Assembly: GCA_021432605.1 (NCBI GenBank)
Contig: MU271150.1
Location: 1,054,001 to 1,118,000 of the forward strand
Origin: Coniochaeta sp. PMI_546
Lineage: Eukaryota > Ascomycota > Sordariomycetes > Coniochaetales > Coniochaetaceae
Reading direction: 5' to 3'
DNA length: 64,000 nucleotides
The notes beneath the pieces were generated by a model that saw only the letters and a list, made by a program, of their open reading frames with translations, was not told the origin of the DNA and did no database searches. This document shows positions 31,914 through 62,013 of this stretch, piece by piece (the first letter of the stretch is position 1; each line of letters starts with the position of its first letter). The position numbers and the translations under genes were made by a program.

Positions 31914-32104
31914 TTGTTTTACAGTTTTTTGCTCGCCTTATGGATCTATTTTTGCGGGGTGTGGGCCATCTGGGTGAGGCGGACGATTTAGGGTGAGAGG
32001 TCGCGCCGGTAGCAAGTTGCCATGGGAGATGTACTGCTTAGAGTGTTTTCATTCATCAACCCCTAGGTTAAGCTCCGAATATACTCCTTCTACGCAATAC
32101 TGAA

Positions 32105-32366
32105 CTTGGTTAATATCACTACCTTACGAAGGTTCTGATAACTTACCCTACTTGTGACAAATATTACAAAGAGATAGGTAATGAGTCAACATACCATTTG
32201 GTATTGTTTCCTCTCTCCTGAAGAACTATGGTCGATATAAGGCTGGTAATTATAAAGTGGTAAATATAACAAGACGTTATTTACGTCAGAATCTTTACCA
32301 CTTGAGAAAATATAAGGATAGCAGTTCGCGGGACGGTTTGGAACAATACCTTGACCCGATCATACA
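32105..32366 (+). repeat. left copy of ~260-bp direct repeat
   Basis: It aligns along its length with 34957-35220. Shared blocks include TCTCTCCTGAAGAAC, CAGTTCGCGGGAC and TTGACCCGATCATACAAA. Differences between the copies are mostly C/T and G/A, and this copy is the more AT-rich, the pattern left by repeat-induced point mutation. The class is unknown; it could be an old terminal repeat or a short dispersed repeat. Confidence 0.7.
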
Positions 32367-33038
32367 AAAGAAATGAAAGGAGGAGGAATGATAACGTCGA
32401 GTGGGAAGGTATGGAGGAGGATTTGGAGTCGAAGAGCCGGTAAATAATAGGATAAGGAAGGAATATTCTATTAGGGTCGGCAACTACTACAGGTGAAAAG
32501 GAGTCCTTGCCTAGAGTTTATCTGTTTTATCTGGCTAGAGCTGTGGGAGAGAGCTCTTCTTTACCTTCCTTCATACTGAAAAGGGCTGTTGTGTGTTCCT
32601 TCCCTTTACACTCTAGGGAGGGAGGGGATACGCGTTAGCACTACCTGACGCACAAAACCTGTCATAACTTTGGAAAGGGTAACAACTTGAACTGGAGGCG
32701 GAACGAGACGGACCCTGGATCTAAGTGATAGCCTGGATAAGGTAGTAACTAAGTTGGTAGGAGGGCTTCTACCTTAGGTTAGAACCTTGGACCTGCCCGC
32801 CTTTGGGACTTCAACTGCGAGCCTGTAAGCCCTGATTCCTGCCCGTACATGTAAGAACCTAGGTACCTAGCTACCTTGCCGTAGCTGGCAATCTTGGGTG
32901 GTGATTGTTTGTAGGGTGGGAACGGTTTTGGGGATTCGAGGTTCTCAGGACCTCTCAGTCCGTATACACCCCTAGGTGCTACTTGTAAGACAGGAGAGGT
33001 AAACAAATCATTTACTTAATTATCTAACTTAGAACTAC

Positions 33039-34408
33039 TTATCCGTGCTCAATTAATGATCCCCTACTCAAGGTAGACGTGTTGCCATCGTAGCGACACT
33101 GCTCCTCTTCCTCACCGTCTCCGTCACCACCTCCCTTGTTATCTCCGTCACCGGAGAAGACGTTAGACTCCTCGTCAGAGATGGTACTGGTTGCTTCCTT
33201 GCCCTTCTTCTTCTTCCAGTTAGTCGAGAAGTACTTGCGTACATTACTTTTCATGTGCCACACACAGAGCTTGAAATGGGCGGCTGGCCATATCTCTCCA
33301 ACCGCAGCACTCATATGATCATCCTTATCAGTGACAACGATTTCTCGTTTCTCTATTGCCGCCTGTTGCCGTACCTTGCTAACAGCATTAAACAACCAGA
33401 GGAACGACTCCGTAGTTTCATTCTCAACAAGGGCGAAAGCAGTATTGAAAGTGGTGTTGCAATTCGTGACGCCAACTATAACTATGAGTGGGTAGTCATA
33501 GTTGTTGGTCTGGCTGGTGTTATCTACGCCCAAGACATCGGGGAGTTTCTTCCATAGCTTCTCCTACTTGGGCATGTTAAAGACCAGCCTAAGTAGGCGG
33601 TCCGGGTCATTGTCACTCATCTTCTTGATTCACTTGATGCCGCGTTCGTCCAGCAGTCGTATCAGTGCACCAAAAGAACTAGCACCATCCAGAGCCATGC
33701 GGGAGGATCAGTAGCGTTGGCTGTGGATATCCTTGCTAGAAGCTGGATGTAGGAAACTGTAGCCCATGGAGACCTAGTGTCCCGCGGGCGTTTGCTGGGA
33801 GTACGTGCGAACTCGGCGATAGCTTCCAGATGCGCCTCTCTGACCTTACGTTGCTGTGGATGGCCGGTAGGGTTTTTCGACGGCTGTTGGTTGTGTACTT
33901 GATGTGCTAGGTTCTCGTTGTGTTGGAATAACCACGAGCTTGTAGCTGTAATCAAGGATGGCATAGTGGTGCCAAGTACAGCCGCATTTGCGATACGTAG
34001 TCTTCCGAACAGATGCTTTCGATGGGCGAGGGTCACCAAATCTGTCATATTCGATCTTGTAGCGGGTAAGGACACCATGGCGTCGGTTACCGCCACTGCG
34101 CCGGTTTACCACATAGCCATGGAGCTTCCCGTGGACGTTGATGTCCTGGTTCTCCTAGTTCTTCTGGGTGGCGTGTGGTGCATCGTGTAGCTGTCGAGAG
34201 TCCTCAGACTCAGAGAAGCCATCAAATCTATCTCAGAACTCCTCCTCCTCCTCCTCTTCTTCCTCGTCGTTTCTTCTCCCTCCAGGTCATCGTCGATAGT
34301 GATGATACCCTTAAAATGGTCGGAAACACGGCGGTGATCCTTCTGGTGGCGCATGTAACGTGCCAGTCGCTTCATACCCTTCAGCCGTGCCTTATCGAGT
34401 CGCGTCAT
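33039..34408 (-). pseudogene. MULE transposase remnant
   Basis: From 34408 the frame gives a basic N-terminal piece with an Arg/Lys run, ending at 34106. A piece at 34112-33846 carries RKTTYRKCGCTWHHYAI, resembling the FAR1-like zinc-binding segment of MULE proteins. A third frame (34096-33662) carries NPTGHPQQRKVREAH. The best-kept piece, 33533-33039, holds the catalytic core: GVDNTSQTNNYDYPL (first Asp), IVVTDKDDHM (second Asp) and HFKLCVWHMKSNVRKY, the CxWH signature just after it. The last acidic residue and the SWIM zinc finger are missing. At least two frame changes plus in-frame stops around 33540-33650 break it. It belongs to the fungal Hop-like MULE group by motif; no complete copy is present. 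Confidence 0.7.
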
Positions 34409-35617: not shown

Positions 35618-36044
35618 TCATACAGCCGTTTGTGTTGTTTCCGTGTTTGATTTATCCAAGCCACTGTCCTTGACACGCTCCTGGCGTCCAAATACTTGTA
35701 GCTCGTTGTCTCTTCCGTCAACAATGGTGTCTGCACTGGTTCTACCTGCCTCTTGAGCACGCGCAGCCTCTTCTGCTTCTAGCCTCCTGTTCTTCTTGAT
35801 CCTGCCCCATAACCACAGTCCGAAGAGGAGAAAAATCAGACTGAGGCCCCCGACGACGGTGCCAAGAATGATGGCTAGCACCTTGCCAGCCTGGGGGTCT
35901 TCCTGGCTGTCACGCGGCGAGAGGTAGTCGCTGTTGATCGATCAGTAAGGCGTTTGCTCCAAGCTAGAAGGGTTCGGGTTAAATTTACGCTTGTGCAGCG
36001 CCAGCCATCATCACTAACATCAGCGTCGAGATTGTTATCCGCAT
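35618..36044 (-). CDS. small type I single-pass membrane protein, unknown function
   Basis: Two exons, 36044-35989 and 35930-35618, giving 122 aa. The intron has GTAAAT, a good branch site (CTTACTGATC) and CAACAG. Exon 1 encodes a textbook signal peptide (MRITISTLMLVMMAGAAQA). A short lumenal part with Asp/Ser/Pro follows, then one membrane segment (VLAIILGTVVGGLSLIFLLFG...), then a basic stop-transfer WGRIKKNRR and a charged cytosolic tail. I do not recognise a family. The layout recalls small single-pass proteins with a Gly-rich membrane helix. The splice model is by eye; the alternative is a longer first exon without signal peptide. Confidence 0.6.
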
Positions 36045-37276
36045 CGGCGTGGTATGCTGGAATTGCAACGACATCGTCGGGGCACTGCAAAAGTCGCTGC
36101 TGAGATTCAGATCCGGGAAAAGGAGAAGAGGTCAATTTCGTGACTGGAAAAAGGCGGTTTCTCTCACGTTATATATTGCTTCTTCATGCCTTCTCCTTTC
36201 AGCAGGTAGTATTTCGTGAGCTGCCGTTAATGGACTAGAGAGCAGTAATGATTGGTTCGGGCAAATTTGGGTGGGACGTCATCGCCCCGTACAAGACCCA
36301 CCACAGGATCTTACCCCAGGCTCCATCTTTGTGTCACCTACCTTTTGATCCGATACACGTTGAACGAGATAATGCGTCAATGCGGCACACGCCCTTCTAA
36401 GTCTAAACGTCAAGCTGCAATGACATTTTGGGCTTGTCCGATCCTTCCACAGATTTGTCATCGAATACGAAATACCAAGACGTAGTGAGGAGTCATACAT
36501 GATTGGTTAATTCAAGCTGTATCTCCTTTACTTGCTTTTTAAGGACAATGCCCCAGAGATTTTTGCCATGAACCCAGCAAATAACAACTATCGTCGATGT
36601 CTGTGTTGATGAGGGGATGACTCTCATATAGCTTTTATCAAGCCTTGCTTGTTAATCGAGGATTTGGTGTTGGAAAGGATAGAGCCTGGTTCTCGAGGAC
36701 TCCCGGAGCACCAAGAGCATTAACAAATAGACTCCGTCAATTCTTTCTTGCATGGCATGTGTGAATTATGACTATACTCGATTTGTGTTATTCTCTTTGT
36801 CCGCATGCTTGAGATCAGATACTACGAGTTTGGTTTGAGACACGGGTTACTCTAACGAGAAACAAGATGTGGGAGCATCTGTTGTGAGGATTGTTAACAT
36901 TGGTGTCAAGTGAGGTTGATGACTTGTGCTCATGAGCCATTATTATGTACCTGACTTACCCCTGCCTTGCCTACCTTACTTACCTCATGGATATACAGTC
37001 CTGAGCTACATAGGCCTGGATTTCTCGACTTCACTTCCAGACGGAAGCTACGACGGCGTATGCGTGCGCGTTTCACTACCCACTGTCTGTAGAAAGGCCA
37101 AACTGGAGTAATTTCTAAGCCTCTTCAAAATGGAACCACATCGTCAACCAGATCATCTTTGCATCTCAACATCCTGCAATCAAGCTACTCAGACTCAGTA
37201 CCCGGTAAGCAATATATCTCTACGCATTATAGCTCTGAACTTGCTGATTATTCCTGTGGCCCAGAACCGTGTCAAG
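36045..37276. other. intergenic, about 1.2 kb, divergent promoters
   Basis: Lies between the divergent membrane-protein and secreted-protein genes. Small ORFs only, with no domain. Confidence 0.6.
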
Positions 37277-38100
37277 ATGTATTCATCCATTGCTATCAAG
37301 ATCTTTGCCGTGGCCGCAGGCTTTGTCAGCTGTGCCGCTGCTACCGTGGCCGGCGGCATTGGTTCAACTTCCACTCTCAAGTGGACTGGTGAAGTAGTTC
37401 CCGGAAGCGGCAACATCGATCTCACTGGCAATGATATCCAGGTAACTGGCCATTTTATCCCACCATAAGCAGTCCGCGCTGACGGCTGCAATGTTTTAAC
37501 AGGATATCCTCAGTCAGATCCATGTCACTAGTCCCAACTACGATGCCACTGTTGCCAATCATAATGAGAAGTCCGTCGTTGTGAACAAGGCCGATATTCA
37601 GAGTGAGTTCGGAGTCTTGCATCCGTGGGAGACAATCGCTAATTCGAGAATGTCCAGATACATACTGCGGAATCTTTGCCACGGCCGACAAGCGCAACTT
37701 CATGCAGCTGCAGTACGACCTCCACAAGGCCGGGGGAACCTGCACGGTTGCCGCCCGCACATGCCTGCGTCTCTCCTGTTGGAACACCAGCGGTATATAC
37801 GTCTGCAACGTGAGTCATCCCCTCATATAGCTCTCTGGTTACGCATCGTTGACCATGATACTCCAGGACAACGACCAAGAGGTGATGATTCCATGCGTGA
37901 CCGCGGCCGACTTCGCGTCGCATGTCGGCGGTACGTGCTGCAAGTCGAGCTACACCGTCTCAAAGGGCCTCTCCGGCCAGGCGTTCTCCGATGAGGGCTG
38001 GAACGTCTGCGTTGCGTACGCCAACTGCAACCATGCCGCCGATCGAGACGCTCCATCGATCTTCATACCACCTGGTATCAATGGGGAGTGCCGGGACTGA
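37277..38100 (+). CDS. secreted cysteine-rich protein, unknown function
   Basis: Four exons: 37277-37441, 37503-37602, 37658-37809 and 37867-38100, giving 216 aa. The signal peptide covers about residues 1-22. The mature protein has 11 cysteines, all in the last ~130 residues, with clusters TYCGIF, GGTCTVAARTCLRLSC, YVC, IPC, GTCCKS, NVCVAYANC and GECRD. It has no known domain. A secreted, disulfide-rich protein of this size in a filamentous fungus is a candidate effector or cell-wall protein. The frame is continuous across all joins and all introns have GT-AG ends, so the gene model is fairly secure; the function is not known. Confidence 0.72.
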
Positions 38101-45711: not shown

Positions 45712-47073
45712 ATGCTGTCCCGTCCTACCACCCGTGCGGCAAAGGTATGTTTCGCCTTATCTGCCCCCGCAATAGCTGGAAATCTCGGCCATTCGCGAAC
45801 CCGCCCGCCCGTCGAGAAAAGATGTTGAAAACACCGAGGCTAACGTGTGCCTCCTGCTCCAGAGCCTCCTCCGGGCCACCGCTCAGCCCTCGTTCCAGCT
45901 CAACGCCGCACGCAGCTTCGCTACCGTGCAGTCCGACATCTTCAAGCCCACCAAGTATGGTGGCAAGTACACCGTAACCCTCATCCCCGGTGACGGTATC
46001 GGCGCCGAGGTTGCCGAGAGCGTCAAGACCATCTTCAAGGCCGACAACGTGCCGATCGAGTGGGAGCAGATCGACGTCTCCGGTATCGAGCAGAGCGCAC
46101 CGACCGGCCGCACAGAGGACCTCTTCCGGGAGAGCGTAACGTCCCTGCAGCGCAACAAGCTCGGACTCAAGGGCATCCTGCACACGCCTATCAGCCGTTC
46201 GGGACACCAGAGCTTCAACGTGGCCATGCGCCAGGAACTCGACATCTACGCCTCCATCTCCCTCATCAAGAACATCCCCGGCTACGAGACGCGCCACAAG
46301 AACGTCGACCTGTGCATCATCCGCGAGAACACCGAGGGCGAGTACTCGGGCCTCGAGCACCAGTCCGTCCCCGGCGTCGTCGAGTCGCTCAAGATCATCA
46401 CGCGCGCCAAGTCGGAGCGCATCGCAAAGTTTGCCTTCAGCTTCGCCGTGGCCAACAACCGCAAGAAGGTGACCTGCATCCACAAGGCCAACATCATGAA
46501 GCTGGCCGATGGCCTCTTCCGCAAGACCTTCCACGAGGTTGCCGAGGAGTTCCCCACCATCAAGTCCGACGACATGATCGTCGACAACGCCTCCATGCAG
46601 TGCGTGAGCAGGCCCCAGCAATTCGATGTCATGGTCATGCCCAACCTGTACGGTGGCATCCTGTCCAACATCGGTGCCGCTCTCGTCGGTGGCCCCGGTA
46701 TCGTGCCCGGCTGCAACATGGGCCGTGACGTCGCTGTTTTCGAGCCCGGCTGCCGTCACGTCGGTCTCGACATCAAGGGCAAGGACCAGGCCAACCCCAG
46801 TGCCATGATTCTCAGCGGCACCATGCTGCTCCGCCACCTCGGTCTCGACGAGCATGCCAACCGCATCTCCCAGGCTATCTATGGCGTTATTGCCGAAGGG
46901 TTAGTACAAGTGCCTCCCCCTCCTCGCGGGAATCACTGTTTTTATCACAGTGTTCCGGAAGCTGACACAATCTCTCACTCTACAGCAAGGTCCGCACCCC
47001 CGACATGGGCGGCAACTCGACCACCCACGAGTTCACCAAGGCCATCCTGAACAAGATGGAGAACAGCCTCTAG
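45712..47073 (+). CDS. IDH1: NAD-dependent isocitrate dehydrogenase subunit 1, mitochondrial
   Basis: Three exons: 45712-45744, 45863-46899 and 46986-47073, giving 385 aa. The first exon (MLSRPTTRAAK) and the start of the second form an Arg/Ser/Ala-rich mitochondrial presequence. TLIPGDGIGAEV begins the mature enzyme. DIYASISLIKNIPGYETRH, VDLCIIRENTEGEYSGLEH, VTCIHKANIMKLADGLF and AVFEPGCRHVGLDIKGK follow yeast Idh1 closely rather than Idh2. The protein pairs with Idh2 in the octameric TCA-cycle enzyme converting isocitrate and NAD to 2-oxoglutarate; Idh1 is the regulatory, AMP-binding subunit. Length agrees with the family. The gene symbol follows yeast usage. Confidence 0.96.
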
Positions 47074-47741
47074 GACTGGCGTTACGCATCGGACTTCATC
47101 TTGCCCGCTGCCTAAGTTGCGCACTTAAATCGAGTCTTCCCATCGGCGGCGTTTATCACCCTTCGACCCTCTCGGGGCTTGTTTTTTTTTTTTTGCCACC
47201 TGCACGACCCGCTTCGCGCTGGCTTTTCCTTGCTGTCTTGGAGGACACCATATAGAACTGGGCGGACCCGAAAGAAAGGGAAAGAGACCGAGGGGGTAAT
47301 TGAGTAGGAGGCATTAGGGTGGGGTGAGAGTGAGAGTGGTTGGGTTGTGGATCGTGGAAGATACCAGAGGGACTGCATACCCTAGACGGAAAGGTTGTCC
47401 GAGGAGGAGGAGGAGGATTGGATTTTTCCACGCGCTGTACAAGTACGTAGTAGGGTAAATTAGGGAGCATTAGGGTTGTGTTTTGCACTGTGAAGCTGAA
47501 TTGACTGTTACGAACTCTATCTTCTGTCTCACTTTCGATTTGTCGGTGATGCCACGGCTAACAATGAAGCTAAGGTAGGTACAGATAGATAGGTATAGGT
47601 GATTTTGCCGCAAAAGGAGAATGAAGCCATGACTCGTGCCATATAATTATCTGATGGTTGCTACAAACCTCCGAACCGCGAAACCGCCCGAAAACGACCA
47701 TAACAATAGAACACCCACAGACTAAAGCTGGCGAACCTCCC
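47074..47741. other. intergenic between convergent genes
   Basis: Holds a T12-13 run near 47181-47194 and purine-rich GGA repeats near 47402-47416. No gene is seen. Confidence 0.65.
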
Positions 47742-49682
47742 CTATCCTTCATTCAGCAATACCACAACAGCTGTCTGTGTCAACACTACCGACGCGTGTT
47801 TTGGTACAACGTCTCCCTGGTTCATCTTCTGCACAGACAGTTCGATATCTCCAAACCCTCTCTCCTGCTTCATATTCACCCCATCCAGCGTGTCGACCGT
47901 CAGCTTTGCCTTCTTCCGCGGACCAGGCCCATCGTGCGCGTCTTGACTCGCCCGCTTCTTCGAATTGGGCTGCGCAGCAACCCAATCCTGCTCGCTGACG
48001 TTCCGTACGAACCAAGCCAGACGAGCGTACACGTCCTCGCTCTCCGGAAGGATGATGGCCCTGGACTTCTTCTTGACCTTCTTGGAATGTACACCGGTAC
48101 AGACGTTGATGTAGGTCGCGTTATCCGCCCAAGCACCTGAGCGCCCGAGGGCATGGTTGCCACGCGTGAAGAAAAGCCGACGCTGCACGACCTGGCCCTC
48201 GGTGATCTCTCCAGGCTCGTATTCTTCCTGGTAGGCACGTTCGATGACCATCAGTCCTTCCTGGGGTTTCTTCTGGCGAGGATTCGGTGCCACGCGGGCC
48301 TTTGTCTCGTAGCAGTGCGTTGACAGGCTGTGGACGCGGGTTGGATTTCGAGATTTCCACTCCTCCACCAGTGCTGCTTTCCTCAACTTCAGGTGGTGGT
48401 AGGCTTGGACCAGGAGTCTGTAATTGGCTACTGTTCGTTCCATGACCATGTCCATGATTCCGGTCTTGACGCTGGGAGCGGCGGAAGATGTTTCGAGTAG
48501 ACACTGTGTCAGACCAGCCGCACCTGAATTGCAGGTTTGGTAGAGCAGGCGACATGGACTGCAGTCGTTTGCCATGCTGTTAAGGTTCAGTGTGATCTTC
48601 CCATCTGTGATTGACTCCAGAAGGCACGAACTCGCAAGCGTCATATCGTCGGACTTTGTCAAGGCAGTGGGCATCGAGTATGGGGGCGTCAGACGTGGGT
48701 TGGGAAGTTGCGGCTGCATGTCATGGCTGACTGTGGCTTTCGTTGTTTGATCATGGCCTGTCGAGGTGCCCGACACCTCATCCTCGTACTGCTCCTTCAA
48801 AGCCAGCCTTGCCAACCTGGCTGCTTCGAGTGCGTCGAGGTGACGGAGCTGATCGCCATGGCTCGTTTGGCCTTTGGCTGTTTTGTGGTCATCGTGTGTC
48901 GGGTCGGAGATATTCCGCGTGCTTTGCTGGTGAGGTGGACTGCCTGCCGGTTGCATGATGACGGCTGGTGTTGGTGTCGGGGCAGCCGACACTACAGGCG
49001 TGTTTTCATTCCGTACCTCGTTGATGAGAGCCACAAGCCCGCGAAGAAATTGAGACGCGATCTGATGGTTCTCCATCATGGCCCGGTCGTTTCTTGAGGG
49101 GTGAGAGGGCGTGTTTGAACTGTTTTCAGTTTGACGACAAGGTGGGTTCACGGATTGGGTCTGCTGGCATTCCGCAACAGGAGTAGTGACCACATCGTCC
49201 GCGAGACTCGGAGAGACTGAGTCGGATGTTTGTACCAACGCGGATGTACTCTCAGGGAGGCCACTGTCGTCGAATTGAGTGAAGTAGTCGGATGCTCGAG
49301 GCCATTGACGGCTTGTTGTAGGCGTGCGATGGCTTTGAACTGTGAAAGGAGCATTCCAGGCAACAGTCGAGTAGTCTTGGAAGGACGATACAATGCTAGG
49401 CGTCATCGTGTGCTCTGACAAGACCTCTGATGGGTTCGATGTGACGACTTTCGGCAACAGAGCACCGCTACGCTGAGTTGGGTGCTTGGGTAAGTTGATG
49501 GTGATCGAGGCACCCGAGTTCTCAAAGAGAGCATCAGTGGTCGGACCGCCAACCTCAAGCTCCCCTGTCAACGTCGTTGCCAGCATGCCCGAGGATGTAC
49601 ACATGGCTTTGCTTGATCAACGTTCCGCAGAAATGGAAGTTTGTTTACCTGATGTGGGAGTTAATTCAAAGAAGGGCTCCAT
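47742..49682 (-). CDS. unknown protein, paralogue of the 56752 gene, with NLS-like motifs
   Basis: Two exons, 49682-49649 and 49564-47742, giving 618 aa; an alternative is a single exon from ATG 49604. Residues 1-300 are low-complexity, Ser/Thr/Pro-rich and probably disordered. A short helix-forming segment HLDALEAARLARLALKEQY occurs near 255. Residues ~345-545 form a domain shared with the gene at 56752-57976. Common features are a Cys-rich start (CSPCRLLYQTC), NYRLLVQAYHHLKLRKAAL, RRLFFTRG, DNATYINVCTGVHSKKVKKK and a final ExxExxYxxxAxxF. The tail has basic runs (KKVKKKSR, RKKAK) that look like nuclear signals. No known domain is recognised. The gene is not obviously degraded. Nuclear function is an inference only. 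Confidence 0.65.
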
Positions 49683-50441
49683 CAGGGCGTAAAGTACCTT
49701 AGGCAAACTGGGAAGGTGCAATACAGTGGACACGGATAGAACTCAAGTGAGAGCTACGTATCGACTTATCTTGGAAGGAGCGCTTGGGCGAAATGGAGGT
49801 TGACAAGACAAAATATGGCCGCTGAGCGCAAGCTGGTCAGCTATCGCGACTTCCATATTAACTAATTAACCGTTTGAGGCATAAAAGCCCTTTAGAGCTT
49901 GTCAGGGAAGAGCCATCAGACATCACATCGGGAACACTAACACCTTTGCTTCACATAACACGCTTTAAATGCTCCACGACCGTTCCATCAGCCTTACCCC
50001 CTGTAATCATGATCAACTCCGGCTTCCGACAGTCTTGGTATTCGTCCAAGATGATGAGCTGATGGAGTCGAACGTTTGCCAGGTAGCCTTAAATAGCTGG
50101 ACATAAGCAGAGTGATGATTTCACAGATGATACACGCATTTCAACCTGTTGTTATGGAACGTGACCGCTTCTTTGCGAGTGAATACATCCTTCGAGCGCG
50201 GATGGATACCCACTTGCGTCAAGTGGCAGAATAGTTTCTGCGACTTGTATTTCTAGTCGACGCGGATCGAACGCGAGATCCCATGTCAGTATTTCCAACC
50301 GGTGCATGTGTTCTCATCAGGGTCACCCCGGAAGAGTACTGAAGCACATCTCTGCAAGCTTGTCTTTTCTCATAGGTATATCAAGTATTGCCTCCCCCAG
50401 ACATTACCCGTAGATGGGTCATTCCCTTTGGTTAAGTAAGA
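49683..50441. other. intergenic, 759 bp
   Basis: Promoter of the 49682 gene and 3' flank of the next. No gene is seen. Confidence 0.6.
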
Positions 50442-51232
50442 TCACTCTCCGTCATGCCGAGCCTTCCCCGGAACGAAAGTGTCAACCTCGTCTAACCGCT
50501 GACCTTTCTTCAGAGCATCCATGATGTATTGACTACAATGCTTAATATGCCCCTCCTTGTCGTTCCACGGCTCAATCGAACCACTGCTGAATTTCGAGCG
50601 GAATTGCTTCCGCCAAGTGAACATGCAATGAGCAACGTGCCACTCTCTCGTCGCATAATAGTCCCTGCCATCTCTCGCCAACTCATCGATCTCATTGGCC
50701 TCAATCGGGATGTATGAAGGTCCCGAAAGCGAAACTCCTTCTAATTTGAAGTATTGCCACGTCCCATTCGGCCCAGCGTCGTCAAACTCGTCGGCGAGCT
50801 CGGTATCAATGCAATGAGGTTGGAGCCAGTCGACAGCGATATGGTCATAGCGGCATCCCATTGCTATGGCTTCTTCATCTGAGCTGCCACATAGACATCC
50901 AGGGATTCTTGAATCAGATTTTGCCTCCATCAGGCTCAGGAGTCGTGATGTTACATCAATAAAGCCCCAAAATGCTAAGATCAGGGTCATTGTTACGAGG
51001 ACAGAGGTTAAGACCCTGCAACTTCTCGAGGGTTGACTCCAGCAGCGCCTGTCAAACCACGACTTTGTCGAAGCACGTTCAGAATTGTTAAGACGACACA
51101 AAGAACACATCTGTTCGTCGTCATGGTCAAACAACGGCTCGGAGGCCTCAGTGTCCTGGCCACATCATCAGTCACACACCATATTCAAGATGACTCAACT
51201 GCGGGCTAGGGTGAAAAACTCACAGGATCCAT
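50442..51232 (-). CDS. single-pass membrane protein with two HxxHC motifs (UstYa-like layout)
   Basis: Two exons, 51232-51224 (MDP) and 51155-50442, giving 240 aa. The intron has GTGAGT, a GACTGATGA branch region and CCAG, and the frame continues. A short cytosolic N-terminus with CSLC precedes one membrane segment (VLTSVLVTMTLILAFWGF, ~58-75). The outer part has CLCGSSDEEAIAMGCRYDHIAVDWLQPHC, then HVAHC and, about 30 residues later, HIKHC. Two HxxHC motifs after a single membrane segment are the signature of the UstYa/DUF3328 oxidases that cyclise or oxidise fungal ribosomal peptides. The spacing and the GCxYDxxAxxWL block are different from classical UstYa, so this is a related or look-alike fungal family. 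It is divergent from the secreted Cys-rich gene at 52099. Confidence 0.6.
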
Positions 51233-52098
51233 CGAGAGACCTTTTTGACTGAGATCATTCCTTCTTGTGGTGTTGAGGAGTGACGGAGAAGCTGAACACA
51301 TATGTGGACGATACTTTGTTAGAAGATAGGTCTGGAGTTCAGGATTCTGTCAGACAAGTATACTCATGTACGATGCCGTGGGACGAGAGGACTACCCGAG
51401 CAGAAAAATATCAGCGCAAGACTAAGATCGGTTATCGACTATGCCGCTGTATCTAGGCCCCGTTTTCGTTTCTTCCCATCAAACATGAATTTCATCTATA
51501 CTCGGCTCCTTCCATGCTACCATGCACTCCTTCTAAGCCTATCTACGAACGGCAGGCCAGGCAGCAATTTCGTTCACCATGTCAATCACTTTCACTGAGT
51601 ATCTGTGGATACGTACACTAAATACGCCCCAGTCGATTCGGAATCATGCCCATCTTTTAGCCTCTGTTCTCAGTCAAGCAGGTGCTACACCCCTGATCAA
51701 GGATCATGTTAGACGACCTCCTGCTTTTGAATCCTTTCATCGGTCCCGTTCACTCCCATAGGATGGCTCGGCCTCGGTGTGTTAACTTATTACACGCCAC
51801 CATGACAGAGAAAGCATTATACTTCCTTCACTATATCGTCGTATCCGGCTCCATCGGCAGAGTCTAGTCTAAGTCGGAAACTGAGAACTCCGTCCCTCTG
51901 AGTCTGCCTTAATTTCACACTTTCGTTCATGGCATCCTACCGTTATTTGCTTCGGGGGTTGTAATACACCTTTGCGAGTATAAAGATCTAGATGGGTTGC
52001 CCATATTAGGCGGATGTCTCCAATTCTTACCATCGACCAACTCAAGCATTCACGGTACTGATAGTTACTCCCAATTTTCGCCACTTCAAGCCGTCATC
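51233..52098. other. intergenic, 866 bp, divergent promoters
   Basis: Lies between the HxxHC membrane protein and the secreted cysteine-rich protein. No gene is seen. Confidence 0.6.
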
Positions 52099-52676
52099 AT
52101 GAAATTCATCGCCATATCATCTCTAGCCATGCTGTTGAGCGCAACAACAGCATCTTGTGCAGCTGTGGTATGTTTCGTGCATCATGGTGCCCCTGAAAAC
52201 ACAACTAAACCCGTCAACCCCGTCAGATTGGCCGCGGGACGGATCAGGCCTCGACATCCATGCCAGCCCTAATCAGACCCGTCTCTGGATTCATGAACGT
52301 CGACATCGACGGCGTTTACAGATCCTACGAAGCCACCGGCACTGTCCTCGACGCCGCACGCCTCTCCAAGGCCCAGATCGGCATCTGGCTCGCCGCCATC
52401 AAGGAACACTCGGTGGCAGACTTCGAGGAGATGCAGAAGCTTTATGCAAATGTTGACGGACTGACTGTGCCGGAGTCCCAGCTCATGTCCCCGCCCGAGG
52501 ACGTCAAACCGACGCAGAAACTCGCAGCATTTGTGGCCTCAAGGGCAATCAGCAAGCGCGCGGGGAGCGATCTGGAGGAGCGTCAACTCATATGTGCTGC
52601 ACATCTTTACTGTCTGTACAACGCTGCTGTTTGCCGCCCTATTAACTGTATCTGCAACGGTGTTATCTGTGTGTGA
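52099..52676 (+). CDS. small secreted protein with C-terminal six-cysteine module
   Basis: Two exons, 52099-52167 and 52227-52676, giving 172 aa. Residues 1-22 are a signal peptide. A cysteine-free middle (~24-130) is followed by the dibasic SKR (132-134), then DLEER (138-142), then a module with six cysteines at 146, 152, 159, 164, 166 and 171 (C-x5-C-x6-C-x4-C-x-C-x4-C). The layout suggests a pro-protein cut by a Kex2-like protease at KR or at the LxxR site to free a 30-38 residue disulfide-rich peptide. No known family. Possible effector, antimicrobial or modified-peptide precursor. Confidence 0.7.
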
Positions 52677-53951
52677 GTGTGATGATGGCATACTGTTGTT
52701 CTGACCGGTTTCCGTCGTTACCATTTTCAGGATGAATGTCAGGAGACAGATTGCTCGGTGGCTATGCTCTATAGGGATACGCGTATTATTCGGAGTTGTT
52801 AGATCAGTCATTACCGGAGTGCCTTCAAATACAGTCGTTACCACAGAGATTTTAATGGCAGGCTTCTCTTTGTGCCCTTGGGAGCATAATCGAGTACTCT
52901 TGATACAATGCGATTTTCGACTAGCAAAGGTGTGATAGAACGCATATTTCATAAACATAACATACAGTGAACATAAGAATAGAACTCTTTTAGAGCTGAC
53001 CGTGGGGCAAGTCGGGACGGAAAGAACGGGATGCAACGTCAATCAATATAAATTGAAATCTTACGAGTATAATCCTGCGCTGTCCCTCAGGCAGCTGCCT
53101 CAGAATGCACAATCGGTGTCACCCTCGCTACGGGCCGAGCAAATCCCGTCTTCCTATATTCTTCGACGTCTTCTCCAGCGACCGGACAGTTTTACATCCC
53201 CGATATCCGAGTACAACATCATCTTCAAGAGAAAAACGCCTAACGCCCAGCTGTTTGGCTCCATTGGCTCCTCAGCCTAAACTCCCTGCATATGATATGA
53301 TGTGATTCATACAAGACACGCAGCGGAAGGATCTTGTGTAATAAAGAACGAGGCGTATTCCTGGCCGACATTGGCAACGCCGCCGAACCCCCCAAGTACG
53401 AAATAATCGCCACTGTCGATGGCTTCACATCCTCTCGGCGTCACTCTCAGTAGTGTAACGCTGTGCGATATCACACAGCATATCTCGTATATTGTTCTCG
53501 AATCCTCTCAACGAGTGAAGGATCCGAGCATCATGCTACACATGAGTATTGACATTGGTTCAAAGGGAGGAGGTGATCATGTTGTCGGTCCATTCAGATG
53601 CCGCTCTAACCGTCGCCGATGGTGATTGATACCTTCGCATCCTGAAGGAAGAGATTGGCAGATCTCTCGCGCAACGAGGATCAGGATCATGTCGGATAGA
53701 GAGTCTTGGTCGTTGCATAGTTCACCAGGCAACAGCATCCCCGAATGATCCGATGGCTAGACCAGCAGTGGAAGCGGAAGTCCAAAACGAGCATCATAGC
53801 ATCACGGCAGGGTCTTCAGAGCAGCGCCGTTACTATATAAGGCCACAGCTTTCCTTCTATCAAGAACATCTCGTCACTATCAACAGCAAGCCAACTCAGC
53901 TTGATATATCATCTAGACCTACTCCACAACACACCAAACACTACCTTCAAG
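52677..53951. other. intergenic, about 1.3 kb
   Basis: Small ORFs without domains. A TATA-like TATATAA (53836-53842) lies ~115 nt before the next ATG. Confidence 0.6.
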
Positions 53952-54360
53952 ATGCTTTTCAAGTCCATCATCGCGCCCGTGACGGCAGTCCTCTTCGTCG
54001 GCCAGGCAATTGCCGCAGCCGTCGAGACAGGCAATCAGATCCAGGAGCGCGCCGCGCAGATTGCCACGGACCCAGGTTTGTCTCAAAAGCCCAAGTTTCA
54101 AACTGCGACATAACGAGAAAGTCGCACTAACAGACACCCTTCAACATCACAGTCTCAGCTTGCAACTGCCCCAACAATTGCAGCCACAAGAAGGGCTCCA
54201 GCTGCCGGTACTACTCGGGCCCGTCCGACAGCTCCCCTGTTGACTCCGGCCGTACGTATTGACTCGAAAGCTCCTCAGCCTCCAGAGCATCAAGGTTGCT
54301 GACATAAGCTTTGTAACAGACTGCGAATGGCGCGGCTCGACTCTAATCTGCATTGTCTAA
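53952..54360 (+). CDS. small secreted six-cysteine peptide
   Basis: Three exons, 53952-54075, 54153-54251 and 54320-54360, giving 87 aa, too finely split to show as one ORF. Residues 1-~22 are a signal peptide (LFKSIIAPVTAVLFVGQAIA). A short pro-part ends in NQIQER. The rest carries exactly six cysteines (C-x-C-x3-C-x7-C-x16-C-x8-C), beginning SACNCPNNC and ending STLICIV. Frame and GT-AG signals agree at both introns. No family is recognised. Secretion and disulfide bonding are likely. It shares its plan, not its sequence, with the proteins at 52099 and 62014. Confidence 0.68.
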
Positions 54361-55082
54361 GAGTAAGGACGATGAGTAGGGGCTCACCACATGCGTAAGG
54401 GTATGTTGTGGCAGCCTGAGATGACGAGGAAGTACGTTTGTGCTTGTTGTTGGTCTTGTGATGTGCAGAGTCAAGTACTGGGGCCCCATGTACTGAGGAG
54501 GATGCGAGTAGCTTCGTTACTTATTCAATTTCATACAATGGGTACGCTGGTCGTGCCGGCCGGCTCAGCAAGCTCTAGTCCCATTATTTCCAATGATATG
54601 TGAGAATACTCAACTTGTCTTGACAGCTTTGTAAGCGCATTTCAGCTGTATAGACAATTAGGCATAAGTTTGGCAAGCATTGGTCGTTTTCTTCGTTTTT
54701 CTGCAGTCCAATTTCAGTGACAGGAAAAAAGCACAGAGAACGTGGATGAGCATCCAGGTATGCTAAAATAACCTTGGGGCAGACAGGCCAGCGATGTTCT
54801 CCAGAACTGACATGCTGTGAGCCTGATTGTACCTCCCATCTGCCAAGTCAAGCGAAGTGGATAATAGATCGCATATTCTGTCTTGGTGAGTGTCAAGAGC
54901 AGCCAGCAAGCTGAGTAAAAAGTCTATATGGACGCCCACAAGAGCGAGCCCGGCATGGCATGACATCGCCACCAAACATGGTGTCTCACTCAACGTCGCA
55001 AGCAAGTTTTTTGCATAGAACTCTGTACTGGTCTGAAAGCAACCCTCCGTTCTCTGAAGTCCTGTCTTCCCTCTTCCCCGGT
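54361..55082. other. intergenic, about 720 bp, possible 3' extension of the 55083 gene
   Basis: A minus-strand ORF (55110-54763, 115 codons) overlaps the end of the coiled-coil gene and might be a spliced extension, but no convincing junction was found. Confidence 0.4.
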
Positions 55083-55580
55083 TCACCGTCTCAGCATGGG
55101 CCAGACACATGAATCATAGAGGTGCCGTCCAGATGCACAGTCCATAGCTCCCACTGTCATAAACTTCTTATGCAGTTTAATTCCATTGTCACTGAGCTCT
55201 TCAAGATCACGAACGAACTTCTCCTGAGCGGCCAGCTTCTTCTTCATGCTGGTGTGGCAGTGTTCGTTCTCCTCCTCCAGTTTCTGAATCACTGCCACCA
55301 GCTCCATGTACTCCATATGTCGACCCGGGACTGTCGTCGTCTGCCGGGCGATGTAGGACAGGATCAGTCCTTCTAAAGCGTGGATCTTGATTTGCATCGC
55401 AGCGTTGTGATTCGCCATCTGCTGTCCCAACTCTTGTATCATTCCCCTAAGTGTGGAGACGTGTGTCTGGAATTTCTGTAGACACGGAATCATTTGCCGA
55501 TTGATGATAGTCAAACATCGCGGGCAGGCTTGCGGTAGTTGCGTGTCCGGTGGGGACTGCGTGCTTGGGCTTCGAGACAT
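55083..55580 (-). CDS. small coiled-coil protein, unknown function
   Basis: 165 aa from the ATG at 55580. Just upstream is a clear intron (55668-55582: GTGAGT, TACTAAC, GTAG), placing an untranslated or very short first exon before it. The N-terminus has Ser/Pro then CPRCLTIINRQ with a CxxC. The rest is strongly helical, with EYMELVAVIQKLEEENEHC and KKLAAQEKFVRDLEEL forming a coiled coil. It lies between the two paralogous genes at 47742 and 56752, on the same strand, and may be a partner or a relative of their N-terminal helical parts. No known domain. Confidence 0.5.
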   Translation of the reverse strand: MSRSPSTQSPPDTQLPQACPRCLTIINRQMIPCLQKFQTHVSTLRGMIQELGQQMANHNAAMQIKIHALEGLILSYIARQTTTVPGRHMEYMELVAVIQKLEEENEHCHTSMKKKLAAQEKFVRDLEELSDNGIKLHKKFMTVGAMDCASGRHLYDSCVWPMLRR

Positions 55581-56751
55581 CCTACTCAACATCAGAGAGT
55601 TAGTAAGTCCTATGCTATTTTCCCCCGAGTTCATGTTTGCAAGGCACCTTCCGATGTTCAAAGTACTCACAGATCGAAGATATGCGTCTTTAGGTAGTAA
55701 ATGTGACACTTAATGATATTAGTGCGAGAAGTTCGGTTTTAAGGATGTAACGCTGTAATTCTATTAGCTGGATGCTGGAGATTGTCTAGACCGTACGATG
55801 ATGTGGCAGTATTGCGCAGTACCTTGAAGAAGTAGAGGTGCTCTGTCTTGAAGCCTGGAAGCTACCTTCGAGAGAACTTCTGACTGAGTTTTGGTCGCTT
55901 CTACGTGTTGTAGCCGACGCAGAACACGATCGATGAAGTCTCATCAGTAAGAAGATTGTAGGTTTCGGTGGGCAGTGGTGGTGTGCAAAATAAAGAGACG
56001 AAAAAGGAAGTTTCAGAATCGAAAGAGTGGAATTCGGAGCCCGAGACGGGAAAGATTCAGAGTTGCAAGCGACAATAAGTGCAGTCGAGACTGCCCTGAA
56101 TGTCCAAAGTCTGCCTCACTCATAAGCAAAAGCACTAGTCTAGAGATATCTCTCATCACCCCAGGGAAACAAGCGATATTATCTAGGGCTGAGAGGACTC
56201 GCCATTCTGAAGTCGAAGATCGGGAACCCAACTTATAGCAAAGCTAGCCTGAGATACATTGATGGGCACACAAGTCGGTTAATTACACCGAGAGATATTG
56301 GATCCGACGAGACCATAGGATATTCAGCTAAGCAGACAAAATAAGTACTTTTTACTCTGTCTATATATCACCGCCTCCTCTATCTATAATTTACTCGAGT
56401 TGATGATAGGCTGACAGCACAACCATGTCTTCATGACTGGCGATGGTACTTACTTTCTATACTGCTGGTCGGACGGAGGCATCGACCACTTGATTACAAA
56501 CAATCTCGTCACCAAATGAGATAGGTAAGACACTCCAACGCTATCAAATGTCGAAATCGTTCAATAGCAAATATGTAGGAGTCTCTGAATTTCCTGTCCA
56601 TCTCAAAACTCAGGAACCTGTCGCAGTCCTTCGTTTAACCCGATCCGGGGAACTAAGAGTGTCTATCCGTAGACACTGAGGCTTCTGGACAGAGAGTTTC
56701 CTCCCGAGTCCTCTCGCTTGCGCCTTCACCGGTCAAGGGTCGCACAGTAGC
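55581..56751. other. intergenic, about 1.2 kb
   Basis: Includes the 5' UTR intron of the gene at 55580. No other gene is seen. Confidence 0.55.
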
Positions 56752-57976
56752 CTACTCCTTCGTGCCTTCTTTCTCAACCAAATCCTCCTCATGGACCATT
56801 TCGAAAATCTTGGCAAAAGATTCATAAGTTTCCTCCGTCTCTTCGACCACAACATCCCCCTTTATCTTTTTGACAGCCACACCGGACGCGACGTCAATAT
56901 AACTGTTGTCCTTGTATACAAGCCCACGGGTGGTCTGGGTTGGCAAACCGCGCAGCAGAAGGAGGCGTTTCTCAACAAATGTTATACTGTCTCGCACATT
57001 AGCGACACGCCAACTCCTGCCAAACACAGGTTTGTCCACAACCAGAGTCTTGGGAATATTGATCTTTCGAAGCTCGTGGAAGCGGGTAGACCTATTAGGC
57101 TCAGCTTCGTGCGATTCAGGGGGCCCGAGGTAATCGAACTTTGCAAAGTTGGCCAGCTCCCATTGACAGAGCAGCTCTGCTTTGCGGTTCCGAAGATGAT
57201 AGTAGGCCTGAATGAGAAGCTTCAGATTGCCTGGAGAGAACTGAATAACAATGTCATGGTTCTTTGGTTTATGGACAGGCTCTGCGGAATGCAGTCTCCA
57301 GTATCTGCATCCGCTTCCAGGCTCTCGTAGAGTTTCACCCCGGAACAGCAGATGACAGAGACCCTTCTGTGGCGGAGCTACCATGCGCAGATGTACCTCG
57401 CCCTTCTCATGTACTTCCTCTAGGCCTGGAATATCAATGACGTGAGCATCCACGTAAGATTCCTTTGCTGTCATCAAAGGCATGCCCGTGGCAGACAGCA
57501 GTGGCTTCTTAGTATTGTCGAAAGGCTGTGGGACGTTGTGGTGGTCTGCTTCGCATGTCAGTTAGCCATGCTGCTAATCCCTCCCGGCGGCAAGTATCAT
57601 GCAACATGGACTTGCTAGTCGTACCTTCGCGCTTGGTCTTGTAGGCTTGAAAGCCCTGTCTCCAGGACTTCAGCTGGTCTTGTAAGAGACGAAGTGAAGT
57701 CTGGAGAGCCCCATCTTGCTCGTTCACGAGAGCTTCGTAGAACTCTCGCATCTCATTGGTGCACCGAGCGAGGTATTCAAGATCACTGCTGCGATCCAAG
57801 TTCGCAGTGCCAGTTGCAACAAACTTTTGCAACGGTGATAGAGCAGTGCCGTCTCTGTCACCGCTATGGCTGATGTGCTCAGCGGCGTGGTCTTCAACGG
57901 CGTGAAAGGGCGCTGCCGGTGAAGAGGGTGTACGGCTGTCTGTGGCTTTACCACCGTTATTGGCCAATGATGGCAT
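56752..57976 (-). CDS. unknown protein, paralogue of the 47742 gene
   Basis: Two exons, 57976-57625 and 57548-56752, giving 382 aa. The intron has GTACGA, CTAACTGAC branch and GAAG. Residues ~70-117 are helical (REFYEALVNEQDG, LLQDQLKSW). Residues ~178-375 form the domain shared with the 618-aa protein at 47742: CHLLFRG near the start, NLKLLIQAYYHLRNRKAELL, then KRLLLLRG, YKDNSYIDVASGVAVKKIKGD and EETEETYESFAKIFEMVHEEDLV. The domain is the same length and order in both, so they are duplicates that diverged. No known family is recognised, and no signal peptide or membrane segment is seen. Confidence 0.65.
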
Positions 57977-58748
57977 CCTAACTAGGGACTTTAGATGATC
58001 TGTTCTTCTGGCGGAGGTACGAAAGCCCCAGTGTCAAACTGAATGGACCATGCGGCAGATGTGAAAAGGACGAGGCTCATGGTGTTAAGTAGGAAGTGTT
58101 GTGAAGGATGAAAAATATTTACCTGAGATCTGCTTGTCGTCAAGCCTTCTGCGTAGATATGTAGAGTAGTCAAGACCTTGGTGAGAGTTATTTCAACTAC
58201 ATTCTGCGGAATGTAGAGAGTGATGGAGCTACCTTGGTAAGGTACCTAGCGTAGAAAGAAGTCGAGAGCGGAAGACGGGACTGAAAGCACCACTTTGCGA
58301 GTAGCGTTTCAGCATAAAGGGCAAGGAAATCGGAGCAATATGGCCCAGCCCACAGGTGAAGCGTGGGTAAGTACCATGAGAAAGTTAAACCCTCGCCAGA
58401 GTATTCACCTGCTATCTACCATACTGCCGACAGGAACGCGAACCAAAAACAACTCAGTCTACTACACTAAACCAAGGACCGCGTCATTCTCCGCAAATTC
58501 CAGGGGTATTACAATTTGCAAACCATTTACAAGGCTTCAGGCGGACATCCTCACATATCCATATGGAGGGAGAATCAGCGGTGTGTACTCTCATACAACC
58601 CAGCACTGCATCAAAGTCCCTGCCCTCCAGGTGTCAGGTAGCAGATATACCAAGCTCATCCGCGAAGAAGAACGTCAGTAAAATGACACAGAGGTGTGAC
58701 AAGATGGAACAAAAAAAAAAAGGTAGGCACAGCCTAACAGCTTCATTT

Positions 58749-58780
58749 GTCGAGTGCCGTGTGTGTCGAGTGCCGTGTGT
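58749..58780. repeat. 16-bp tandem duplication
   Basis: The unit GTCGAGTGCCGTGTGT occurs twice in perfect head-to-tail order. Confidence 0.85.
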
Positions 58781-58880
58781 TAGAACTACTGCGCCCCCGT
58801 GAGGGAACTTTGTGTGCAGATGGTAGAAGACTTGATTGCTCAAGCACAGCGCCAATTTGCGGCAATCAACGAAGGCTAAG

Positions 58881-58970
58881 ATGACCATCGCGGGAGTCGA
58901 ACCCACGGCTTTCTTGCACTAAATCGAATTTGCAGATAGAGAGGGCTCGCCCAACTCCACCAACGGCGAG
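58881..58970 (-). ncRNA. tRNA-like Pol III sequence, degenerate
   Basis: On the minus strand, A-box TGGTGGAGTTGG (58962-58951) and B-box GGTTCGACTCC (58903-58893) lie at tRNA spacing. The T-stem GTGGG/CCCGC pairs, but the 3' acceptor GATGGTC finds no 5' partner. Probably a pseudo-tRNA or SINE head. Confidence 0.4.
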
Positions 58971-58980
58971 AAATTAGGGT

Positions 58981-59060
58981 CGAGATTTGAACCTTTAAGG
59001 TACCACTGCGCTCTTAGGTGGTCCCTTGATTGTAAGGCTGCCGCTCATCACCATGACACG
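58981..59060 (-). ncRNA. second tRNA-like sequence, degenerate
   Basis: The B-box-like GGTTCAAATCTC (58993-58982) is preceded by a perfect hairpin ACCAC/GTGGT that could be a long variable arm of a Leu/Ser-type tRNA. T-stem and acceptor do not pair. It lies head to tail with the element at 58881. Confidence 0.25.
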
Positions 59061-59435
59061 GACTGTGGTCCTCACTAAACCTGCCAACCTCTAGACTCTA
59101 GTAGTGCAAGGTTGGTCTTCATGAGGAAGTCCGAATATACATGATTCGCATCAGAAGGGAATTCAAGCCCATGTGTCTCACTAACACAATGCAAGCTATG
59201 GGATTTCACTTGAGGTAAAAGAAACGATACCTGAGTCACATCAAACAGCGTAAGACATCAAACCGCATGGGGAGCAACATGGCTTTGAGATCAGATAGGA
59301 AACTAGATCTCCGAGTATGAGAGGGAAAAGGTTCAGGGTATCAGATGAAATGTTCACCAACTAAGTAAAAGAACGACAGGCAGACCTTTTATGACCGTGA
59401 CCTCCAAACGCCGGTGATGCTGTAAAACATGCCCA

Positions 59436-60326
59436 TTAGAAGGCGATCCGCCGTTTCCTGCCAGTATACTTTGACGTTGCCCTGACAATCTTTCCTTTCC
59501 GCTCCATCTGCTCCTTCTTCTTGATGATCCACTGCTTACTGCCCTTCTTGATCTCTCCCTTTCCAGACTTCAAGGACTTTCTCGAATCCAAGACGTCCAC
59601 ACCCTCCATTCCTTGCACCACACCCGTGATATCCCCACTGCCGTTCGCACTGCTGCCGCCGACAGTCAGGACGAGGTAGAGCTTCACGTTCTTCGTGCCC
59701 GGGTCGTCTTCCAGGATACCAGCGCCGAAGCCTGCCTTGACCGCTGCCGCACTGATCATATTCCGTTGGACGTCATTCTTGGGATAGAACTGGCACACCG
59801 CTCGTCCTCCTCGCTTCAACGAGGCATAGAGCCCATTGAAGAACCTTGACAGTCGACCTGCCGGTGATGTCTCGCTGCTCTCTGCATTGCACAGCCATTG
59901 GATCGCGCTAATGCTGATGGCAGCATCGAACGCACCCGCCCTGAATGGCACACCTTGTCCTATGTCCGCCAGGAGCAGGTCACCCTCGACATCTCTTTGC
60001 AATGCCACATCAAGCATAGAGGCACTGATATCCATTCCTACCCACATGTGTGGGCCGCCCTCCTCCTCTTCCACTGACGAGAGGATCTCGCCCGACAGAC
60101 CGCTACCGCATCCGACGTCCAGGATCAGACTGGGGGAGTCGAGCTTGAGCAGCTCGAGTGCTCTTCTTGTCATGGAAGCTTGAATATTCTGGATTCGGGA
60201 GCTCGTTGTGTACTTGCGCGCTTCGGTGTCATCGTAGTGGACGTCGGCCGAGCTTTTGGCATCGTCAGTTGCGGTTGACGTGCCGCGGGGACGGAGCACT
60301 TACAGGGTGTCCTCGGGCCTTGACAT
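59436..60326 (-). CDS. BUD23: 18S rRNA (guanine-N7)-methyltransferase
   Basis: Two exons, 60326-60304 and 60252-59436, giving 279 aa. The N-terminus MSRPEDTL is completed across a 51-nt intron and continues HYDDTEARKYTTSSRIQNIQ, almost as in yeast Bud23. ILDVGCGSGLSGEIL is motif I for S-adenosylmethionine; MDISASML, DLLLADIGQGVPF and FDAAISISAIQWLC follow. The basic C-terminus ends TGRKRR, a nuclear/nucleolar signal. With its Trm112 partner the enzyme methylates 18S rRNA at the conserved G1575 (yeast numbering) during small-subunit maturation. It is divergent from the SVP26 gene. Confidence 0.96.
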
Positions 60327-60741: not shown

Positions 60742-61537
60742 ATGTGGATCCTCCCTCTTGTGGGCTATTTAGGCTCGGCTGTTGGCTTCTGCTTCCTCAC
60801 TCTTGCCATAGGTACGTTCGCCCATTCTGTCGCCTTCGCTATGGCCATTTGCTGACCTTGAACGTTGCAGCATCCGGCCTCTACTACCTCTCCGAGCTCG
60901 TCGAAGAACACACAGTCATTGCCAAGCGGCTACTCACGCGGTTAATATACTCGATCATCGGCCTCCAGCTGCTGCTATGCATCATCGACGGGTTCCCGAT
61001 CATCCTCACGCTTCTGGGCGTCTTTTCGCACGTCGTGTACCTCGGCAACATGCGGAGGTTCCCTTATGTCAAACTCAGTGACCCTCTTTTCCTTGCATCG
61101 TGTGGTAAGCCATATATCGACCCTAAAGCCCGCCCGCCAATGACTCCGCTGACGTGTACCTCACAGTTCTGGTCCTCCTCAACCACTACCTTTGGTTCAA
61201 GCACTTCTCCCACGCGCAAGACCGGGCGTACAAGAACATGACATCGTACTACGACTCGCCCAGTAACATACCTTCGTTCACCGAGATCGCCTCGTATTTT
61301 GGTCTGTGCGTCTGGCTTGTGCCCTTTGCGCTGTTCGTCAGCTTGTCGGCAAGTGACAATGTCCTACCGACGATGGACAGCGAAGGGCCTTCGATTGCCG
61401 GCGGTATGGGAGGTGATGGTAACAAGGCAAGACGGGGACAGGGCCTGGCAAAGGCTCTTGTCGACAATGTCCGATCTACCATTGGGGCGGTGGGGCAAAT
61501 GGCGGGCTGGAACAGACCGCGAGACCGGTTCGAGTAA
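60742..61537 (+). CDS. SVP26: SVP26/TEX261 family ER-Golgi membrane protein
   Basis: Three exons, 60742-60811, 60871-61104 and 61167-61537, giving 224 aa. Four membrane segments are visible: the start (LPLVGYLGSAVGFCFLTLAI), LIYSIIGLQLLLCIIDG, FPIILTLLGVFSHVVYL and SYFGLCVWLVPFALFVSL. ASGLYYLSELVEEHT after the first, NMRRFPYVKLSDP, and NHYLWFKHF in the third exon are family marks. Yeast Svp26 is 228 aa and acts as an adaptor loading Golgi glycosyltransferases into COPII vesicles; the human relative is TEX261. Length, order and topology agree. Confidence 0.93.
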
Positions 61538-62013
61538 GGGCATTTCTACGTGTTTATGGTCTGTGGTGCTATATATTTGCTCGTCTGCATTACAGGGGCG
61601 TCTCGGGGCAGGTTTCAACAAGTAATGGTGCGTAGAGATTCTGTGCTGCACTACTTCGGTTCTTGCACACTCTCTTGACTTATAAGGCTAACGAGAGTAA
61701 AGATAAGGATGGCGAATGTATATTATGTCTTTCATGGGCGGTTATTGTCGAGCATAACATAGTCACATGTGTGGAGACCATCAAATGTGTTCTTGGGAAC
61801 TTTCTGTCTTATTTTCTGGGATTTTTAGGTACAGTTCCAACGAGTCACCCTCCTTCTCGCCGGCCGAGCTTAAACTCCGATGGAGAACTCCATACAACGA
61901 CGAGAAGTGCCTTCGGTGACGCAGCCCAACAGACATCTGTTACCTTCCCAATCACTCGTCGTTTACTATGTTATAAGGTTAGCCAACAAAACCTCAGCGC
62001 AAAGTAGCGTCGT
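61538..62013. other. intergenic, 476 bp
   Basis: 3' flanks of SVP26 and of the small peptide gene. A possible alternative last-exon acceptor for that gene (ACATAG, minus strand) lies near 61955. Confidence 0.5.

Follow-up and report, generated by a model that had tools for sequence, protein, structure and literature searches.

Two diverged paralogues of Coniochaeta sp. PMI_546 share a C-terminal domain absent from the family libraries searched

The window analyzed here, a stretch of 64,000 nucleotides from Coniochaeta sp. PMI_546, contains two genes on the minus strand, ∼7 kb apart, whose products had been proposed in an earlier note to share a C-terminal domain. The locus thus raises the questions of whether this likeness reflects common descent, whether the domain belongs to a described family, and how the pair came into being. 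Comparison of the two proteins by BLASTP revealed that their C-terminal parts are indeed homologous (51.2 bits, E = 8e-12), with 47 of 176 residues identical (27%) and ∼210 homologous residues in total. In a shuffle control, the pair scored 53.5 bits, whereas none of 200 versions of protein 2 with shuffled residues exceeded 24.3 bits. A chance resemblance between spurious or non-functional open frames would fit the absence of a known domain and an annotation that consists of one hypothetical protein, but it would not be expected to stand out so clearly from shuffled sequence. Moreover, the relative P0003 (436 aa), which has 48% identity with paralogue 1 across the domain, keeps both the domain and the C-terminal tail, and the relative P0002 (617 aa), 97% identical to paralogue 1 there, has nearly the length of that protein. 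An origin of the likeness in spurious frames is thus scarcely credible.

Both loci were found on the strand indicated in the earlier note, although the gene models required adjustment. Paralogue 1 had been placed at 47742-49682. Its locus and strand were correct, but the open ATG-to-stop frame, which encodes 620 aa, starts at 49604 (47742..49604, minus strand), and P0002 begins with the same methionine. A start at 49682 would require a 42-nt 5' intron, which would keep the frame and is otherwise unsupported. The N-terminal ∼320 residues of paralogue 1 are of low complexity: the fraction of P, S, T, Q, N, G, E, and D is 0.45-0.65 per 40 residues in residues 1-320 and falls to 0.30-0.53 beyond residue 320. 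According to the alignments, the shared domain covers about residues 326-545 (47970..48629, minus strand). It is directly followed by a bipartite basic segment resembling a nuclear localization signal (NLS; residues 549-567, 47904..47960, minus strand), which, as a pattern match only, is present in paralogue 1, P0002, and P0003 and missing from paralogue 2. The same three proteins also have the C-terminal tail QTAVVVLLN[ED]G in common. Upstream of the domain, alignment delineated a conserved, helical-looking motif, HLDALEAARLARLALKEQYEDE (48777..48842, minus strand), which occurs once in paralogue 1 and in two tandem copies in P0003. In the latter, residues 7-96 consist of two tandem copies, 82% identical, of a 45-residue unit around DALEAARNARLA; paralogue 1 carries one copy of this unit.

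Paralogue 2 was present at 56752..57976 (minus strand) as described, provided that one intron is removed. Its exons (57976-57625 and 57545-56752) flank a 79-nt intron at 57546..57624 of the form GT...CTAAC...AG, and the resulting 381-aa product equals database entry P0004 (BR93DRAFT_939259, annotated as a hypothetical protein in Coniochaeta sp. PMI_546; 100% identity over the searched region, with the same length and letters), with which the splice agrees. The alignments place the shared domain at about residues 159-370 (56788..57423, minus strand). Antisense to this gene, a 179-codon open frame at 56791-57330 (plus strand) weakly matches an antisense frame of paralogue 1, a likeness explained as a shadow of the coding homology.

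Five conserved blocks had been proposed for the domain, of which all except a basic run were tested as patterns. The block N[YL][RK]LL[VI]QAY[HY]HL[KR]xRKAxL matched both paralogues exactly, as did [KR]RLxxxRG; P0003 is one residue off the former, with E for Q. The remaining two were recovered in paralogue 2 and not in paralogue 1. At the block proposed as DN[AS]YI[ND]V[AC][ST]GV, paralogue 1 reads DNATYINVCTGV, with DN displaced by one residue, and P0003 is devoid of DN; a corrected version, [YF]I[ND][VI][AC][ST]G, is shared by 4/4 family proteins. Likewise, ExxExxYxxxA is replaced by ExExxYxxxA, again found in all four. Two of the four tested blocks had therefore been misread.

The earlier note knew of no family with this pattern of blocks, and the libraries searched were in agreement. 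Pfam returned no family in the shared domain at E values up to 10, with P0003, P0004, or the domain alone as the query, and nothing there at E values up to 1 with paralogue 1 or the paralogue 2 frame. Searches of NCBIfam (E up to 1) gave no match for the domain either; since this library is designed for bacterial and archaeal proteins, its silence is of little weight for a fungal one. Among PDB sequences, 0 matches were obtained for paralogue 1 and the main frame of paralogue 2 at E values up to 1. Two weak Pfam matches, to Mis12 (PF05859; E = 0.062 with the unspliced first frame of paralogue 2, and not listed for the spliced protein) and to DUF3944 (PF13099; E = 0.044 with the unspliced first frame and 0.16 with the spliced protein), were below the cutoff and were treated as chance. 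Both likenesses are confined to the N-terminal region of paralogue 2 and leave the shared domain uncovered.

Known folds are often hidden in fast-evolving fungal genes. The domain might thus belong to a described fold or family and have diverged so far that profiles built from just four sequences fail to detect it. Structure prediction reached a mean pLDDT of 33.2 for paralogue 2 from its single sequence and of 42.9 for the domain of paralogue 1 from an alignment of four, neither model being good enough for a fold search. Accordingly low in confidence, the paralogue 1 domain model gave 0 Foldseek matches in the PDB at E ≤ 0.001 and 22 at E ≤ 10, the best at 1.4. Against a hidden known fold stands the silence of Pfam on the domain even at E = 10 in three queries, together with the empty NCBIfam and PDB sequence searches; on balance, we regard such a fold as a serious prospect, somewhat short of an even chance. 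Both low-confidence models present the same order of a long helix, the YI strand, a next strand, and a last helix, which would lend weak support to one common fold. They differ in the strands that precede the long helix, and the RLFF strand appears in the paralogue 1 model only.

Regarding the origin of the pair, the earlier note had suggested a tandem duplication of a multi-gene module including a coiled-coil gene. That gene, coiled-coil-like in character, lies between the paralogues (55083..55709, minus strand; likely ATG at 55634 by inspection), and a search of the genome with it located the gene itself and no second place. A crude score for coiled coils failed to distinguish the genes and was not used as evidence. 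When all open frames of at least 40 residues in 47000-59500 were compared with one another, E ≤ 0.01 was reached only by the paralogue pair and its antisense shadow. Duplication of a module was thus not borne out: no further related pair of frames was found in 47000-59500, and the search with the coiled-coil gene located no second copy, which fits duplication of a single gene. The distance of ∼7 kb between the paralogues points to a local duplication, and the event appears to be old, since the DNA of 47000-59500 displayed no self-similarity at E = 0.01 and the proteins retain 27% identity. Searches of the whole genome (33,477,513 bases in 24 contigs) with paralogue 2, P0003, and the paralogue 1 domain each gave two significant places, namely, the two paralogues, the other paralogue being recovered at E values of 3.8e-11, 1.4e-9, and 6.8e-12. 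A single further place at E = 0.83 was treated as chance rather than as a third copy. These searches treated each exon separately and applied a first-look filter, so that strongly diverged or intron-broken copies could escape them.

Alternatively, the paralogues might belong to a lineage-specific island that extends from an isocitrate dehydrogenase gene to a BUD23-like methyltransferase gene, and might act together with their neighbors in it, of which one is UstYa-like and two code for small secreted proteins. The interval in question spans ∼12 kb between genes of known Pfam families, Iso_dh and WBS_methylT, and six of its open frames were run through Pfam without any reaching a cutoff. Its GC content, 0.46-0.52 per kb in 50001-59000, is below that of the flanking genes, but it does not fall below that of other parts of the window, such as 32001-34000 and 36001-38000 with values of 0.47-0.49. 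Listed repeats do not exceed 27 nt, no 1-kb stretch of 47001-60000 passes both RIP thresholds, and the neighboring genes are on both strands and of unlike type, which makes a functional island unlikely. Involvement of a mobile element was rejected on the repeats listed in 47000-59500 and on these RIP values; outside that region, 61001-62000 would pass both thresholds, at 0.96 and 0.98.

Other genes of the window are described here in their own right. At 50442-51134 (minus strand) lies a lone gene for a UstYa-like membrane protein, with a Pfam UstYa match below the cutoff (E = 0.0046) and two HxxHC motifs, HVAHC and HIKHC, as expected of this family; no biosynthetic cluster was recognized alongside it, although no dedicated search was made. 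Two probable genes for small secreted cysteine-rich proteins, with introns assigned by eye, are located between the paralogues. The first (52099-52676, plus strand) ends in ...NCICNGVICV, and Pfam gave nothing for its main frame; the second (53952-54360, plus strand) has a signal-peptide-like start. Far outside this region, the gene at 2797-4056 (plus strand) encodes a member of DUF6055, an uncharacterized Pfam family (E = 1.4e-16).

Many fungal hits, often in clusters, were what the earlier note asked for in support of the domain. Three protein searches gave four family proteins in all, two of which share 97% of their residues in this region, and given the limited reach of these searches this is weak evidence of absence. 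With residues 385-545 of paralogue 1 as the query, 3 of 276 candidates were returned (its own protein, P0002, and P0003), and paralogue 2 was not among them. Residues 150-375 of paralogue 2 recovered only paralogue 2 itself among 352 candidates at E values up to 1. An alignment of three returned 3 of 7,121 candidates, all of them known family members, and missed P0003 even though P0003 is a row of the query, indicating that a word filter limits the reach of the protein searches. Within the scope of such word-limited searches, the family is apparently lineage restricted. In a collection of viral contigs, 101 stretches matched a pattern and none encodes a relative; the collection is not fungal, and this result says little. 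Literature on Coniochaeta and PMI_546 and on broader subjects, represented mostly by titles and the beginnings of abstracts, contained nothing on the paralogue family in those parts, and no paper was found under the locus prefix BR93DRAFT. The available passages of one study, in which clusters of orthologous genes served to compare Coniochaeta 2T2.1 with PMI546 and relatives (PMC6757388), did not deal with it.

Within the family, P0003 has three features of paralogue 1, namely, the N-terminal motif, the NLS-like segment, and the tail at the C terminus, and hence groups with it. It follows that the duplication would have preceded the separation of the lineages of P0003 and paralogue 1. Alignment of paralogue 1 with P0003 indicated that the long-helix region is best kept within the domain (27 of 35 residues in 391-425), the counts for its other parts being 26/62 (326-390), 17/43 (426-470), and 37/75 (471-545). 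As judged from this alignment, conservation extends outside the domain: 29 of 55 residues are kept in 241-300 and 29 of 75 in 546-620, compared with 12 of 47 aligned residues in 1-240.

Taken as a whole, the pair looks like an ordinary lineage-specific gene pair. As in taxonomically restricted (orphan) fungal gene families, there were no matches in Pfam, NCBIfam, or PDB sequences, few relatives were found, and the genes form a local pair of paralogues; nothing clearly distinguishes the present pair from such families, its breadth being judged by protein searches of limited reach. As a tentative explanation, which we hold to be possible rather than probable, an old local duplication of one gene in the Coniochaeta lineage would have given rise to two diverged paralogues, one a nuclear interaction adaptor and the other a non-nuclear copy. 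Both would encode a ∼210-residue domain, absent from the libraries searched and putatively of the alpha/beta class, which in the low-confidence model runs from strands through the long helix (NYRLLVQAYHHLKLRKAAL) and further strands (RLFFTRG, YINV, and AIIL) to a terminal helix. A surface for protein interaction would most likely be provided by the long helix together with the ExExxYxxxA helix at the C terminus. Paralogue 1 is most likely an adaptor or regulator in the nucleus, as suggested by its probably disordered N terminus and the NLS-like segment after the domain. Paralogue 2, with a probably helical N terminus and no NLS-like segment, would most likely act outside the nucleus, or else pair or compete with paralogue 1. 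We assign low confidence to this division of a protein-interaction domain into a nuclear and a non-nuclear copy. The strongest version of this account, in which a new nuclear protein-interaction domain of the Coniochaetales adopts a new fold and one member of an ancient nuclear/non-nuclear pair regulates the other, seems improbable.

What the analysis provides is a verified seed of four sequences, with blocks and gene models corrected, for a domain that is missing from the libraries searched. If the domain proves to be wider in the Sordariomycetes, it would deserve a family entry; if it is confined to Coniochaeta, it would represent one more lineage-restricted fungal gene family.
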